A stretch of 64,000 bases of DNA from Bacteroidetes bacterium 37-13 (GTDB taxonomy: Bacteria; Bacteroidota; Bacteroidia; Chitinophagales; LD1): the NCBI GenBank assembly GCA_001897535.1, contig MKTC01000006.1, positions 62,001 to 126,000 of the forward strand. Direction: 5' to 3'. A program made the translations under genes and the position numbers. The notes under the pieces are model-generated. The model saw only the letters and a list, made by a program, of their open reading frames with translations, was not told where the DNA came from and made no database searches. This document shows positions 48,500-54,591 of the stretch, in pieces; positions within the stretch are counted from its first letter, which is position 1, and each line of letters starts with the position of its first letter.

Positions 48500-49633
48500 G
48501 TGAAAAAAAAGATTGCCGTAAATACCAGATTGCTGCTAAAAGATAAGTTGGAAGGCATTGGCTATTTCACGCACGAAACCTTAAAATATATTGTTCGAGC
48601 TAATCCAGATATTGATTTCTACTTTTTATTTGATAGAAAACATCACAGCGAATTTATTTATGCTCCCAATGTGCATCCGGTTGAATTGTTTCCGCAAGCC
48701 CGCCACCCATTTTTGTATATCTGGTGGTTTGAATGGAGTGTTGCAAATTGGCTAAACACTAATAAACCCGATTTATTTCTTTCTCCAGACGGTTATTGTT
48801 CGCTAAGAGCAAATGTGCCGCAACTTGCTGTGATGCACGATATTGCTTACGAGCATTTCCCAAAGCATAATAAGTTTTTGCAACAGAAATATTACGAATT
48901 TTTCATGCCCCGATTTGCGCATAAAGCTACGCGCATCGCCACAGTTTCTCATTACTCAAAAAGTGATATTGAGAAGTATTATGAAATTTTACCCGAAAAA
49001 ATTGATGTAGTTTTTAGTGCTGTAAAAGAGAATTTTTCACCATTAACCGAAGCAGAAAAAGTTTCAGTGAAAGAAAAATACACTTCAAGTAAAAACTATT
49101 TTGTGTATGCCGGCTCGGTGAACCCGCGAAAAAATGTAGCCAATATGTTGCTGGCGTTTGACCGATTTAAACAAGAATCTGCAAGTGATTTAAAGTTTGT
49201 GATTGCAGGGGCAAAAGGCTGGCAAACCGGAGAAATTTTCGACACTTGGAACAGCCTGCAATTTAAGCATGATGTAATTTTTACCGGAAGGCTCTCTTTA
49301 GAAGAAATGAAACAAGTAATTGGCGCTGCACAAGTTTCGCTTTATGTAAGTTTATTTGAAGGCTTTGGAGTGCCACCGTTGGAAGCAATGGCTTGTGGCG
49401 TTCCTGCTATCACTTCAACAAGTTCTTCTATGCCCGAAATTTGCGGTAAAGCTGCACTTTTTGCCAATCCCAATAGTGTGGAAGATATAAGCACTAAAAT
49501 GAAAATGCTTATTGAAAATGAAACGCTTCGCAATTCATTAATAGAATTGGGTTTTGAACAATATCACAAATATTCTTGGGAAGCAACGGCAAAATTACTT
49601 TGGGAAAGCTGCAAAAAAGCTATGACAACTTAA
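48500..49633 (+). CDS. GT4 family glycosyltransferase
   Basis: 377 aa, GT-B fold. The C-terminal half has FVYAGSVNPRKNVANMLLAF, FVIAGAKGWQ, VIFTGRLSLEEMKQVIGAAQVSLYVSLFEGFGVPPLEAMACGVPAI, with the EGFG...E motif that binds the donor nucleotide. The N-terminal half has AVMHDIAYEHFPKHN. It transfers a sugar with retention, probably onto a surface polysaccharide or lipid precursor; the substrate is unknown. The start is GTG at 48500. Its 3' end overlaps the convergent histidine kinase gene by 4 nt. Confidence 0.9.
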   Translation: MKKKIAVNTRLLLKDKLEGIGYFTHETLKYIVRANPDIDFYFLFDRKHHSEFIYAPNVHPVELFPQARHPFLYIWWFEWSVANWLNTNKPDLFLSPDGYCSLRANVPQLAVMHDIAYEHFPKHNKFLQQKYYEFFMPRFAHKATRIATVSHYSKSDIEKYYEILPEKIDVVFSAVKENFSPLTEAEKVSVKEKYTSSKNYFVYAGSVNPRKNVANMLLAFDRFKQESASDLKFVIAGAKGWQTGEIFDTWNSLQFKHDVIFTGRLSLEEMKQVIGAAQVSLYVSLFEGFGVPPLEAMACGVPAITSTSSSMPEICGKAALFANPNSVEDISTKMKMLIENETLRNSLIELGFEQYHKYSWEATAKLLWESCKKAMTT

Positions 49634-51408
49634 ACCGATTTTTTAGGAATAGAAACGCAGAAAGTACTTCCTCTATATTCGTTTTCTTCTACCCAAATTT
49701 CACCTTTCAAGTTATCTACAATTTTTTTGCAGATAGCTAAGCCAATTCCCGTTCCAGGAAACAAGTGTCGCGCATTCAAGCGTTGGAAAATCACAAACAC
49801 TTTATCAGCATATTCTTTAGCAATGCCGATGCCGTTATCTATTACCTTAAATTTATGTACTTTGTCTGTATCGCTATATTCAACACGCACAATCTTTTTT
49901 GAACTTAAATTGAACTTAGCAGCATTGCAGATTAAGTTTTCAAATAAGCGATAGATGTGTTTTTTATCTGCTTGCAGCATTGGTAAGTTATCAATTGTAA
50001 AATCAACTCCTACCAAGTTTTCGGCAAATTTATTTCGTATTTCTACTACTATATCGTTTAAGTTCACTTGCTCCACTTGCACAGCTTGGTTTAGCTTCGA
50101 AAACTCTAATAAACTATTGATGAGTTCATACATTCGTTTGGAGCCTTCATAAATAAACTCCATGTATTCTTTTGTGCTTTCGTTAGTAATTGGCTCTATT
50201 TCTTTTTCAAGCAAATTGATGTAATTACTAATCATGCGAAGCGGCTCTTTTAAATCGTGCGAAGCCACGTAAGCAAACTGTTTTAGCTCATTGTTTGAAA
50301 TTTCTAATTGATGCGCATAGCTTTCAATTTCATTATTTTTTTGGCGCAGCAATTCTGCTTCTTTCTTTTTCTCTTCTAATTCAAACCGCGACTTGGCATC
50401 CATAATGGCAACTGCTTTATCGAAGTTGAACATTTCATCTTTTGTGCGGTCGTATAAGATGTGATATTCATAAGCTTTCTCAAAATTTTTGGTTGAAGCA
50501 AAAACTTCGGAGAGATACTGATACACAATATTCAAATCGCTTTTACTATCTAATTCAAATAGCATTTTTTCAGCTTCTTGAAAATATTTTATTGCCTCGC
50601 TTGAATTATTTGCCAGCTTATGTGCCATTCCTAAATGGATATATGAATTGGCTATAGAGCTTTGGTTGCCAAATTTCAATTTAGCTTTTAATGATTTATG
50701 GAGCAACTCAAAACCTTTTTCAAGTTCACCTAATTCGCAGTATGTATAGCCTACATTGTTTTGAACAACTGCTGCGTAATATTCTTCATTTAATTCTTCA
50801 AAAAGTTTTAATGCCTTTAAGTGATAATCTAAAGATTTTTCAGGCTTTTGCTCTTCATTAAAAATATTTGCCAGCATATTGTAACAGCGCGCCAATCCTG
50901 GCTTGTGTTCAATGCGCTTAAAAATATCAATAGATTTATATAAACATTCTAACGGATAATCTTTGGTTTCGGAACTTTTGTATAGAACAGAAATATAGTA
51001 AAACAAAAAGCCTAACTCTTCTTCTAAATTATAGTTGAGTGTATTGTGTGCTTCAATAAGTTGAACTGCATCTTGGTAAAGTTGCTGTGCGCTATTCCAC
51101 GCGCCAAGGTAATGCTCGTTCATACCCATTAAACGCAGAATGCGCACGCGCAATAAAATATCTTGCTTGGTGAGTTCGAGCGCTTGTTCGCACAGTTCAA
51201 GGCTTACTTTAAATTGCGATAGAACTTTGGAATTATACGAAGCTAAATAATACAAAGCTTCGGCTTGCCACTCAACATTTTCTTGCTGCTTAGCAATTAC
51301 CAAAGCCTCTTGTGCCAACTGTTCAGCCTGCGTGTTCTGCGACTTAATGAGTTGCTCAGCTTTCTCTATTAAATGGGTAAATTGCGATTGCAATGCTGCC
51401 TTATTCAT
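49630..51408 (-). CDS. Cytosolic TPR-containing sensor histidine kinase (copy 2)
   Basis: 592 aa, no signal peptide or membrane helix. Residues 1-320 are tetratricopeptide-like repeats (for example ARCYNMLANIFNEEQKPEKSLDYHLKALKLF), then a short coiled coil (about 340-375). The HisKA domain has His384 in YVASHDLKEPLRMIS; the ATPase has the N box ENLICNAAKFN, G1 DNGIGIA (524-530) and G2 GTGIGLAI (552-559). It probably senses a cytosolic protein or peptide through the TPR array. It lies 13 nt downstream of a paralogue of the same layout; no response regulator is adjacent. Confidence 0.93.
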   Translation of the reverse strand: MNKAALQSQFTHLIEKAEQLIKSQNTQAEQLAQEALVIAKQQENVEWQAEALYYLASYNSKVLSQFKVSLELCEQALELTKQDILLRVRILRLMGMNEHYLGAWNSAQQLYQDAVQLIEAHNTLNYNLEEELGFLFYYISVLYKSSETKDYPLECLYKSIDIFKRIEHKPGLARCYNMLANIFNEEQKPEKSLDYHLKALKLFEELNEEYYAAVVQNNVGYTYCELGELEKGFELLHKSLKAKLKFGNQSSIANSYIHLGMAHKLANNSSEAIKYFQEAEKMLFELDSKSDLNIVYQYLSEVFASTKNFEKAYEYHILYDRTKDEMFNFDKAVAIMDAKSRFELEEKKKEAELLRQKNNEIESYAHQLEISNNELKQFAYVASHDLKEPLRMISNYINLLEKEIEPITNESTKEYMEFIYEGSKRMYELINSLLEFSKLNQAVQVEQVNLNDIVVEIRNKFAENLVGVDFTIDNLPMLQADKKHIYRLFENLICNAAKFNLSSKKIVRVEYSDTDKVHKFKVIDNGIGIAKEYADKVFVIFQRLNARHLFPGTGIGLAICKKIVDNLKGEIWVEENEYRGSTFCVSIPKKSV

Positions 51409-51421
51409 TCCTAATTCTCTT

Positions 51422-53275
51422 CTACGTATTTTTAAGGCTAAAGTTTAGTTCAGTTTCAACAGGTATGGAAAACTTAATGCAAGCGCCACCTAAACGACTA
51501 TCGGCTGCCCAAATTTTCCCATTTAGCAATTCCACAGCTTTTTTGCAAACAGCTAAGCCAATTCCCGTGCCGCTCACTTCTTCTTGATGCAACCTGCTGA
51601 ATATAAAAAATATTTTTTCCCGTTTCTCTTCAGGAATTCCAATGCCATTATCATGCACTTCGAACCAATGTTTATTGTTGTGTTTGAAATAAACAATTTC
51701 AACCGTTGGGCGATTGGAATTGTTATATTTAATTGCATTTACTATAAGATTTTGAAGTATTTGGGAGAGTAGTGTTCTATTGCTTTTAATTACCGGCAAT
51801 TTACCATACAATACTTCTGCATTATTATGTGCAATAATAATGGCAAGCATAGATTTTACTTCAGCAAGTAAGTTATTTAAATCTACTGGCTGCAACGTAA
51901 CTTGCGCATCTGCTTTGCTTAGCGCAATCATGTGTTGAATCATTTCAACCATGCGCTGAGTGCTTTCTTGGATTACTGTTGTGTATTCCTGCACCTTGTT
52001 ATTTTCCGGTTCAGTATATTGCTTGGCTAAAAGTTTGGTATAGCTGCTAATCATGCGCAATGGCTCACGCAAATCGTGCGATGCCACATAGGCAATTTGC
52101 TTTAGCTCTTCGTTTAGTAGTTTTAGTTTATGTACGGTTTCGCCTACTTGTTCTCGCTTTTGTTGCTGAAAATCTGCTTCAATTTCTTGCCTTTTTATCG
52201 CAAACTCCATTGTGGCATTGTGAATAGCTGTGGCTTTATCAAAGTTCATCCACTCATCTTTCACTTTTGAATATTTTAAACGATAACCGTAAGCCGATTT
52301 GTAATCTCCTGCTTCGGCAAGTGTGCCTGCCATTTCAAAATATAAATCGTGTAATTCAACATCTCTATTTGCAGTCAGCAATAGTTCTTCAACTAAAATA
52401 TAATGTTCAAGCGCTTTTTCGTAATCTTTTAAATATCGATAAGCACGAGCAAAATAATTGTGTGCCGCTGCGGCATAACCGGAAACTCCTGTAGCTTCCA
52501 TTTCTTTCAATCCTTGGTTCAGCAAACTGAAACCAAATTCAGCATCGCCCAATTCGCAATACACTAAACCTAAAGGGCAAATGCACGAAAGTTCGCCAAT
52601 TTTATTTCCCGTTTCTTTAAAAAGCGCCAAGGCTTTTTCAAACAATTCTTTCCTTCGCTGTGGCAAATTTTTTACCTCACTGTGATAATCTGCATATAAG
52701 CTAAAACACTTTGCCAATCCATCTTTAAAATCTGCTTTTCCATAAAACTCAATTGCCTTTTGCAGATGGTGAAACTTTTCTTCATCGAAGGCTAAATGCT
52801 GATAAATAAGAATGATATTATAGTGCAAGCTACCAGCGAGAAGCAACTCTTCTTTTGAGCTTAATTCTACACCTTCTAAAACAGTTATTGCTTGAAAATA
52901 ATTTGAGATGGCATTTGTAAAATTCCCTCTCCAATGGTAGCAAATCCCAATAAACTTAAACAGGTTTGCTTTAAGAAAAGATTGCTCTTCGCTACCTAAG
53001 AGCGCCAATGCTTCCAAAGCATGATGCAATGCGGCTTCAAAGTCTTTTAAAGCATTCAAATAATAATTAGCAATTTCAAATTTGGCTTCTGCGGCTTGAA
53101 AAACAAGATTGTTTTCCATTGCCAAATTCACTGCTTTTTCAGCGTATTCAATACACTTTATGTCTTTATTTTTCCGTGCTTCTTTAGCATTTGAAATATA
53201 AGAAACCACCTGTGAAAATATATCAACAGCGCTATTTGCCTGTAAGTTTTCTATTTCAGAGGGCTTGCTTAACAT
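51422..53275 (-). CDS. Cytosolic TPR-containing sensor histidine kinase (copy 1)
   Basis: 617 aa, same architecture as the next gene: TPR-like repeats to about residue 340 (AAHNYFARAYRYLKDYEKALEHYILVEELL), coiled coil, HisKA with His400 in YVASHDLREPLRMIS, and ATPase with LQNLIVNAIKYN, HDNGIGIPEEKRE and GTGIGLAVCKKAV. The kinase halves of the two proteins are close while the TPR halves have diverged, which suggests duplication followed by a change of input. It is the first gene of the pair. The 246-nt gap upstream (53276-53521) holds no gene and no clear promoter that I can defend. Confidence 0.93.
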   Translation of the reverse strand: MLSKPSEIENLQANSAVDIFSQVVSYISNAKEARKNKDIKCIEYAEKAVNLAMENNLVFQAAEAKFEIANYYLNALKDFEAALHHALEALALLGSEEQSFLKANLFKFIGICYHWRGNFTNAISNYFQAITVLEGVELSSKEELLLAGSLHYNIILIYQHLAFDEEKFHHLQKAIEFYGKADFKDGLAKCFSLYADYHSEVKNLPQRRKELFEKALALFKETGNKIGELSCICPLGLVYCELGDAEFGFSLLNQGLKEMEATGVSGYAAAAHNYFARAYRYLKDYEKALEHYILVEELLLTANRDVELHDLYFEMAGTLAEAGDYKSAYGYRLKYSKVKDEWMNFDKATAIHNATMEFAIKRQEIEADFQQQKREQVGETVHKLKLLNEELKQIAYVASHDLREPLRMISSYTKLLAKQYTEPENNKVQEYTTVIQESTQRMVEMIQHMIALSKADAQVTLQPVDLNNLLAEVKSMLAIIIAHNNAEVLYGKLPVIKSNRTLLSQILQNLIVNAIKYNNSNRPTVEIVYFKHNNKHWFEVHDNGIGIPEEKREKIFFIFSRLHQEEVSGTGIGLAVCKKAVELLNGKIWAADSRLGGACIKFSIPVETELNFSLKNT

Positions 53276-53521: not shown

Positions 53522-54325
53522 TCAAATACTAAAATCTATCACTTCCTTCATTTCGCTTTTATCGCGCACACGCACTTCATTTTTTTGATAAGCAAAGCTA
53601 AACGGTGGAACACTTTCTGTTAAAAATACATTCCCTCCGATAATTGAATCGTGTCCCACAACTGTGTTTCCGCCCAAAATGCAACTTCCTGCATAAATTA
53701 TCACATTGTCCTCAATAGTTGGATGGCGTTTTACTCCGGCTTGGCTTTTTAAAACCGCCAAAGCACCTAAAGTTACCCCCTGGTACATGCGTACATTTTT
53801 GCCAATTACAGTTGTTTGCCCAATCACAATTCCTGTGCCGTGGTCAATAAAAAATGGTGCAGCAATATTTGCTCCCGGGTGAATATCAATTCCTGTTTTG
53901 CTGTGTGCATATTCGGTAATTAAGCGTGGCAGAATCGGCACTTTCAGCTTATATAAAATATTAGCAACTCTATAAGCCACAATGGCAATAAAACCTGGAT
54001 AAGTGATAATTACTTCTTCTAAAGATTCTGCTGCCGGGTCGCTTTCCAAAAAGAAAAGAGCATCTTTTTGCAGTGTTTCCCGAACCGAATAAAGTTTTTC
54101 AAAAAACAATTCAATTATTTCATCAATCGGTATTTCAAGTTTTTCAGTAAGTGGAATAAGTAACTCCAACAATTGCTTTTTTAAAACAGAAGCCCGCTCT
54201 TCGTTCCATGCCTCATTTGCAAAAACTTCATTTTCAACCGGAAAAAGGAAATCTTGTATCACATCTGTAAACCGATGTGTTTTTAAGCGCGATGGCATAG
54301 TTTGAAAGGTGATAGTATCGTTCAT
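53522..54325 (-). CDS. cysE: Serine O-acetyltransferase (EpsC type)
   Basis: 267 aa from ATG 54325; the upstream in-frame residues fall in the terminator of the leader and are rejected. An N-terminal helical domain is followed by the left-handed beta helix: GIDIHPGANIAAPFFIDHGTGIVIGQTTVIGKNVRMYQGVTLGA carries the catalytic His-Asp pair, then RHPTIEDNVIIYAGSCILGGNTVVG. It acetylates L-serine to O-acetylserine, the first committed step to cysteine. The preceding 145 nt contain a Cys-rich leader ORF and a terminator, indicating control by cysteine supply. No O-acetylserine sulfhydrylase gene is in the window. Confidence 0.95.
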   Translation of the reverse strand: MNDTITFQTMPSRLKTHRFTDVIQDFLFPVENEVFANEAWNEERASVLKKQLLELLIPLTEKLEIPIDEIIELFFEKLYSVRETLQKDALFFLESDPAAESLEEVIITYPGFIAIVAYRVANILYKLKVPILPRLITEYAHSKTGIDIHPGANIAAPFFIDHGTGIVIGQTTVIGKNVRMYQGVTLGALAVLKSQAGVKRHPTIEDNVIIYAGSCILGGNTVVGHDSIIGGNVFLTESVPPFSFAYQKNEVRVRDKSEMKEVIDFSI

Positions 54326-54344: not shown

Positions 54345-54379
54345 ATAAAAAAGCCCTGTGCTTTTAACAAACACAGGGC
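54345..54379 (-). terminator. Attenuator terminator in the cysE leader
   Basis: Read on the minus strand: GCCCTGTG (54372-54379), an 11-nt loop, CACAGGGC (54353-54360), then TTTTTT (54347-54352) and ATT. It ends 21 nt before the cysE start codon and has no upstream gene other than the 20-codon leader ORF, so it can only regulate cysE. Its 5' arm overlaps by two bases the segment 54378-54384 that can pair with the leader ORF 3' end. Confidence 0.85.
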
Positions 54380-54406
54380 GCAATTTCTTTTGTTTATGTA
54401 ATTAAA

Positions 54407-54469
54407 TTATTGCACACTGCATTTGCAGTATATAATACACCAACGGCAACAATGAATAATTAAATACAT
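54407..54469 (-). CDS. Cys-rich leader peptide of cysE (candidate cysteine attenuator)
   Basis: A 20-codon ORF, MYLIIHCCRWCIIYCKCSVQ, stops 27 nt before the terminator ahead of cysE. Five of 20 codons are Cys (TGT, TGC, TGT, TGC, TGC at codons 7, 8, 11, 15, 17). Segment 1 (54425-54431, ATACTGC) pairs with segment 2 (54414-54420, GCAGTGT). The 3' part of segment 2 (54409-54415, GTGCAAT) can instead pair with segment 3 (54378-54384, ATTGCGC), which overlaps the terminator 5' arm. A ribosome stalled at the Cys codons through codon 15 would leave segment 2 free and favour read-through; one at the stop codon would cover it and allow termination. The promoter is uncertain: a TATTGTTTG stretch lies upstream (near 54505) without a clear TTTG partner. 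Confidence 0.75.
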   Translation of the reverse strand: MYLIIHCCRWCIIYCKCSVQ

Positions 54470-54591
54470 GGCGTGAAGATAATAAGTTGCTCGTAACAAA
54501 CAATATTGGATTGTTATATTGGGCACTCTGTTTCTCTTTTACAAGAAAACACACATAAGTAATTTATTAAAAAAAATAGCTTCATTTAAAA

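Follow-up and report, generated by a model that had tools for sequence, protein, structure and literature searches.

The window examined here, a 64,000-nucleotide stretch of contig MKTC01000006.1 from Bacteroidetes bacterium 37-13, very likely contains a ribosome-mediated transcription attenuator that controls cysE in response to cysteine and is keyed to Cys-tRNA. This assignment rests on sequence evidence only, without expression data. The region upstream of cysE has a short ORF with several Cys codons, an intrinsic terminator, and an antiterminator strand complementary to the terminator arm; these elements are conserved and co-vary in relatives, and a promoter is placed directly before the ORF.

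The cysE leader and its predicted competing RNA structures

The features of the locus are listed below in 5′ to 3′ order along the minus strand.

54501–54503, minus strand: TTG, a −33-type element 19 nt upstream of the −7 box
54474–54481, minus strand: −7 box TATCTTCA, a weak match to the Bacteroidota TAnnTTTG, with the predicted +1 at 54469
54469 (ATG) to 54407 (TAA), minus strand: leader peptide ORF encoding MYLIIHCCRWCIIYCKCSVQ, 20 codons of which 5 are Cys codons
54425–54431, minus strand: segment 1 (ATACTGC), a possible protector strand that pairs with 54420–54414
54410–54424, minus strand: segment 2, the antiterminator 5′ strand (AAAUGCAGUGUGCAA / AAATGCAGTGTGCAA), ending at the leader stop codon
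54369–54383, minus strand: segment 3, the antiterminator 3′ strand (UUGCGCCCUGUGUUU / TTGCGCCCTGTGTTT), which includes the terminator 5′ arm
54347–54379, minus strand: intrinsic terminator with an 11-bp stem (54379–54353) and a U-tract (54352–54347)
53522–54325, minus strand: cysE/epsC-type serine O-acetyltransferase of 267 aa (profile search), the presumed controlled gene

The Cys codons occupy positions 7, 8, 11, 15, and 17 of the leader. The leader stop codon is separated from the terminator by 27 nt, and the end of the terminator lies 21 nt from the cysE start codon (ATG 54325). The description of the ORF, its Cys codons, and both spacings given in the initial annotation of this region held in full. 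A GTG or TTG start further upstream was considered for the leader ORF and dropped, ATG 54469 being favored by the promoter position and by the relatives. The cysE protein scored 150.5 bits against NCBIfam NF041874 EpsC (cut-off 150) and 159.7 bits against TIGR01172 cysE, which is under the cut-off of 210.65. On the other side of the leader lies a divergent radical SAM gene (start 54592), and the terminator therefore belongs to transcripts running toward cysE and cannot end an upstream transcript on the same strand. Downstream of cysE, the minus strand encodes two adjacent proteins (49630–51408 and 51422–53275) that look similar by eye; each seems, again by eye, to have repeats at the N terminus and a C terminus resembling a histidine kinase.

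The whole leader folds more stably than 200 of 200 shuffled sequences (z = −3.7). When this 260-nt region was shuffled, 12% of the shuffles had an upstream ATG ORF containing a Cys-Cys pair; the pair alone is thus not beyond chance, and the case rests on the relatives.

The terminator, GCCCUGUGUUU(GUUAA)AAGCACAGGGC followed by U6, has a predicted energy of −19.7 kcal/mol, compared with −13.0 kcal/mol for the antiterminator helix formed by 54424–54410 and 54383–54369. This helix comprises 15 paired positions in the fold (14 in the duplex calculation) and covers nearly the whole 5′ arm of the terminator; its duplex energy was matched by only 0.5% of shuffles (p = 0.005). The initial annotation had proposed a 7-bp helix overlapping the terminator arm by two bases and had counted this as a weak point. 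That part needed correction: the 15-bp helix removes the concern about a two-base overlap and largely removes the doubt about a short helix. The additional helix it had proposed between segments 1 and 2 (ATACTGC/GCAGTGT) did hold, being predicted in the window copy at −7.6 kcal/mol, and its conservation has been shown for no other locus. Rfam searches of the window element and of 15 related loci gave no match at the gathering score. A weak, sub-threshold match to the trpB motif RF04312 (27.4 bits versus 59) was taken as terminator-like chance.

In the mechanism we propose, RNA polymerase would start on the leader AUG or shortly ahead of it, and because of this the leader ORF would be translated almost on emergence. 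With ample Cys-tRNA, the ribosome would clear the Cys codons, reach the stop codon, and cover the antiterminator strand (54424–54410), upon which the terminator would form and transcription would end at about 54347. With scarce Cys-tRNA, the ribosome would wait upstream on a Cys codon, leaving the antiterminator strand free to pair with the terminator 5′ arm, and the polymerase would continue into cysE (cysE–cysK in most relatives). Where transcription starts, that the ORF is translated, that ribosomes stall, and that cysteine supply has an effect are all inferred.

Conservation and covariation among relatives

The family sample comprised 24 genomes with this cysE; one (G019) was left out because of a contig end, leaving 23 with readable upstream DNA. 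A Cys-run leader precedes cysE in 22 of these 23, with runs of two to six consecutive Cys codons that were mostly absent from 300 shuffles. The terminator is found at the same place across the family, with a hairpin and U-tract in every leader but one (L099), where Ns hide it. Lack of conservation of the Cys codons or the terminator in close relatives would have refuted the cysteine-keyed attenuator put forward in the initial annotation, and this reading survived. The only family genome whose cysE has no Cys-run leader is G003 (L092/L303). As a separate observation, other genes lie between cysE and cysK in this genome (L303).

Leaders from the window's own genus include MHFIITAYCCIISPQKRSV and MNANIKYTTWCCCIEIMRGIAFV, and further family peptides are MKFIQIICCCCCSPCKGE, MKNIPTCCCCCCGATGGGILFLLA, and MNRNHPFAVCCCAESAPLKGFAM. 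The Cys run is the best-kept part of the peptide; length, flanks, and C terminus vary between genera. An automatic criterion, requiring an ORF with Cys-Cys plus a terminator, was met by 21 of 23 family loci, 4 of 68 loci elsewhere in the order, and 11 of 74 additional non-family relatives (shuffles, 0). Chitinophagaceae bacterium DXS (L017), for which the genome is complete, has the leader MRGKFCCCCGVR. Matches outside the family include records labelled Ignavibacteriae and Chloroflexi (labels as recorded, unchecked). Three loci labelled as Anaerolineae/Thermoflexus/Chloroflexi MAGs (L047, L058, and L061) share a leader, MLAVHVCC[IV]CCSDGTC..., and a terminator before cysE. The attenuator may be present outside Bacteroidota, or the labels may be wrong; either is possible.

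Across the loci, the antiterminator strand is located in the stretch from the Cys run to shortly past the stop codon and pairs with the terminator 5′ arm. Duplex energies of a locus's own antiterminator strand and terminator arm were better than those of exchanged pairs (permutation p = 0.0037 for the family), and in the same test on 24 non-redundant loci none of 20,000 permutations was as good as the own pairs. The compensatory changes that the initial annotation had suggested looking for were seen at arm positions 4, 6, and 7, where a change in one strand is accompanied by changes in the other two. Antiterminators of genus g2 are often just 5 to 6 bp long and individually not significant.

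The effect of ribosome position was modelled by simple equilibrium folding of the RNA exposed before the terminator 3′ arm appears, with the ribosome placed at set positions. A ribosome waiting on the Cys run gave a mean modelled arm sequestration of 0.77, and one whose A site held the stop codon gave 0.15. Since shorter free RNA yields part of this contrast, shuffled inter-regions were used as a control, for which the observed mean was 0.80 versus 0.52 for the shuffled sequences (the maximum of 100 shuffled means being 0.65). In the window copy, the modelled contrast is weak (1.00 when stalled versus 0.55 when the A site holds the stop codon). Without a ribosome, the model often predicts antitermination, with a mean of 0.65, in many loci.

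Predicted transcript start and other cysteine genes

The promoter had been considered unclear, a doubt that is now largely removed: TTG at 54503–54501 is followed after 19 nt by TATCTTCA at 54481–54474 and, after another 4 nt, by the leader ATG. The window −7 box departs from the consensus. Of 20 family loci, 18 have a TAnnTTnG box that ends 4 to 9 nt before the leader ATG; the probability of meeting one within 12 nt by chance is 3.5% per locus. The gap is exactly 4 nt in nine of these 18, as in the window, and 5 to 9 nt in the other nine; a TTG lies 17 to 20 nt from the box in 13 of the 18. The −7 box has been mapped at −12 to −5 in Flavobacterium psychrophilum (PMC9723704). Taking the box at this position, +1 would be the A of the AUG for a gap of 4 nt and would lie 1 to 5 nt upstream for larger gaps. 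The window transcript is inferred from sequence alone, with no start site mapped, to begin at the leader AUG or within about 5 nt of it and would thus be nearly leaderless. Leaderless mRNAs make up 5.5% in F. psychrophilum (PMC9723704), and 5′ UTRs shorter than 10 nt account for about 3.7% in Bacteroides thetaiotaomicron (PMC7366714). In Chitinophagaceae-like loci the box lies farther upstream of the leader, and the predicted near-leaderless start is therefore a family trait rather than general to such leaders.

In Chitinophagaceae-like genomes, a near-palindrome, TTAGTCYACTAA, overlaps the −7 box preceding cysE, whether or not a leader is present. It occurs approximately 150 to 170 nt upstream of cysE in L017, L023, L027, L039, L056, L110, and L112, also in L164, and in reversed orientation in L108, L113, L114, and L133. 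Conceivably, it is the operator of some unidentified regulator.

The cysK gene lies directly downstream of cysE in most family genomes. In the window's genome (G000) and in G002, cysK is located away from cysE, and no leader was found upstream of it. A search for poly-Cys codon patterns across the family and order was dominated by repeats and gave one useful lead, beside a cysK-like gene in G004. A cysK/M-like gene with its own Cys leader and terminator was found in eight family genomes, some of them without a cysE match (L295–L302, in G004, G013, G020, G009, G027, G025, G023, and G007). The leader peptides include MKFNCLHTLMCCCCCCKAQLTGYWWA and MINRYTYLRHCCCCCCAEPPGYGWR, and the terminator reads AGCTCCAC...GTGGGGCTT. 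GGUGG or UGUGG at the stop codon can pair with the CUCCAC arm, a pairing that is not significant in single loci. The peptide C termini keep a Trp codon (YWWA, YWWT, YRWT, HLWT, and YGWR), as expected if GGTGG/TGTGG serves as the antiterminator strand. The start codon of the g4 cysK/M-like leader is apparently GTG.

In two genomes, cysH has poly-Cys leaders, MNASCKACCVCCCCC and MMMNLTAAAAKCCCICCCCC (L205 and L207), which end in CCCCC directly before the stop codon and are located approximately 220 to 280 nt upstream of a PF01507 (cysH) match. They share a conserved downstream stretch, CAAAGCCGCAGC ... TTTTCCGGCTTT, in which no clear T-run terminator was seen; these leaders might use another mode of control. 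Among PF01507 matches of about 300 to 320 aa in the family, none had a poly-Cys leader close upstream.

It is slightly more likely than not, in our view, that these genes (cysE–cysK, the cysK/M-like gene, and cysH) form a cysteine-attenuation regulon in Bacteroidota, with separate leaders translated from starts at or beside the AUG, which are rare in the phylum, coupled to intrinsic termination and with an evolutionary origin separate from that of the mycobacterial leaderless poly-Cys ORFs. Bacteroidota do not rely on Shine-Dalgarno initiation. If the proposal is right, attenuation of the classical coupled kind, in which ribosomes must follow the polymerase closely, would work in Bacteroidota, the leaders would be a control point for cysteine synthesis in this phylum, and they would parallel the leaderless poly-Cys leaders of mycobacteria as an independent case.

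Alternative explanations and known systems

One alternative is control at the level of translation or by Rho: stalling at Cys codons would alter how ribosomes reach cysE or how Rho loads, and the hairpin would be there only incidentally. In its favor, actinobacterial cys leader peptides lack terminators and Rho has been proposed to act there (PMC1262725), the Mycobacterium smegmatis case has been described as translation attenuation (PMC13236596), and neither of the cysH leaders has a clear T-run terminator. Against it, the hairpin and U-tract accompany all family cysE leaders except the one disturbed by Ns, and the terminator arm co-varies with the antiterminator strand. We consider this explanation very improbable.

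Even less probable is the view that the ORF gives rise to a functional small peptide whose Cys residues bind metal or thiols and that the terminator merely ends the transcript of this ORF. The Cys run is indeed the most conserved part of the peptide, but length, flanks, and C terminus differ between genera, unrelated peptides occur in the same arrangement before cysK/M-like genes and cysH, and the 3′ codons are tied to terminator pairing. A metabolite-binding riboswitch or protein-bound leader with an ORF present by chance would fit a structured leader with a terminator, but it is made very unlikely by the lack of an Rfam family at gathering score in the loci searched and by the conserved element being the Cys run, with no conserved aptamer-like block seen between promoter and terminator.

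Cysteine-keyed attenuation, the preferred reading, is thus supported by the sequence, and the regulation itself remains inferred. No description of a cysteine attenuator for cysE or in Bacteroidota was found in the open-access literature searched, and to that extent the initial claim of novelty held. Cysteine leader peptides as such are known from Actinobacteria (PMC1262725), mycobacteria (Canestrari 2020), and Rhodobacterales cysS (PMC8632094). Clues to leader-peptide attenuation in F. psychrophilum (PMC9723704) share the phylum and concern amino-acid biosynthesis operons, but the main text names no cysteine or cysE case.

With the trp/his-type attenuators of Proteobacteria and Actinobacteria, the window element shares regulatory codons in a leader ORF, an antiterminator and an intrinsic terminator that exclude each other, and a biosynthetic gene downstream. 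It differs in the amino acid (cysteine), the phylum, the predicted start at or next to the AUG, and the position of the antiterminator strand at the leader stop codon. The trp-type features of a leader ORF rich in codons for the product amino acid and of an intrinsic terminator between this ORF and the structural gene are both met. An antiterminator that excludes the terminator, and that by its position would be freed or masked by the ribosome, is likewise present, although weak in genus g2 and in the stop-codon state of the window copy. A possible protector hairpin, the element that in the trp type gives termination when there is no translation, is seen in the window, yet the antitermination that the model favors in many loci without a ribosome is unlike the classical trp design.

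By analogy, the closest systems in mechanism are the leaderless poly-Cys ORFs of mycobacteria and a motif upstream of cysS in Rhodobacterales. The former (Canestrari 2020, PMC8764745, details via citing papers; PMC1262725) are short ORFs that likewise have a Cys run and precede cysteine genes, and they are leaderless, as the window leader nearly is by prediction. Mycobacterial cys leaders have no conserved terminator hairpin (PMC1262725), whereas an intrinsic terminator and a competing antiterminator are present here; because of this terminator the window leader is not a member of the mycobacterial type. The latter, uORFC-8-2 (PMC8632094), resembles the window element in its tandem Cys codons within a uORF, its intrinsic terminator, and its predicted ribosome-mediated attenuation. 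It lies upstream of the cysteinyl-tRNA synthetase gene in Alphaproteobacteria, with the Cys codons usually at positions 14 to 15 inside a conserved stem, whereas the gene downstream is cysE in the present case and the relatives of the genome are recorded as Bacteroidota.
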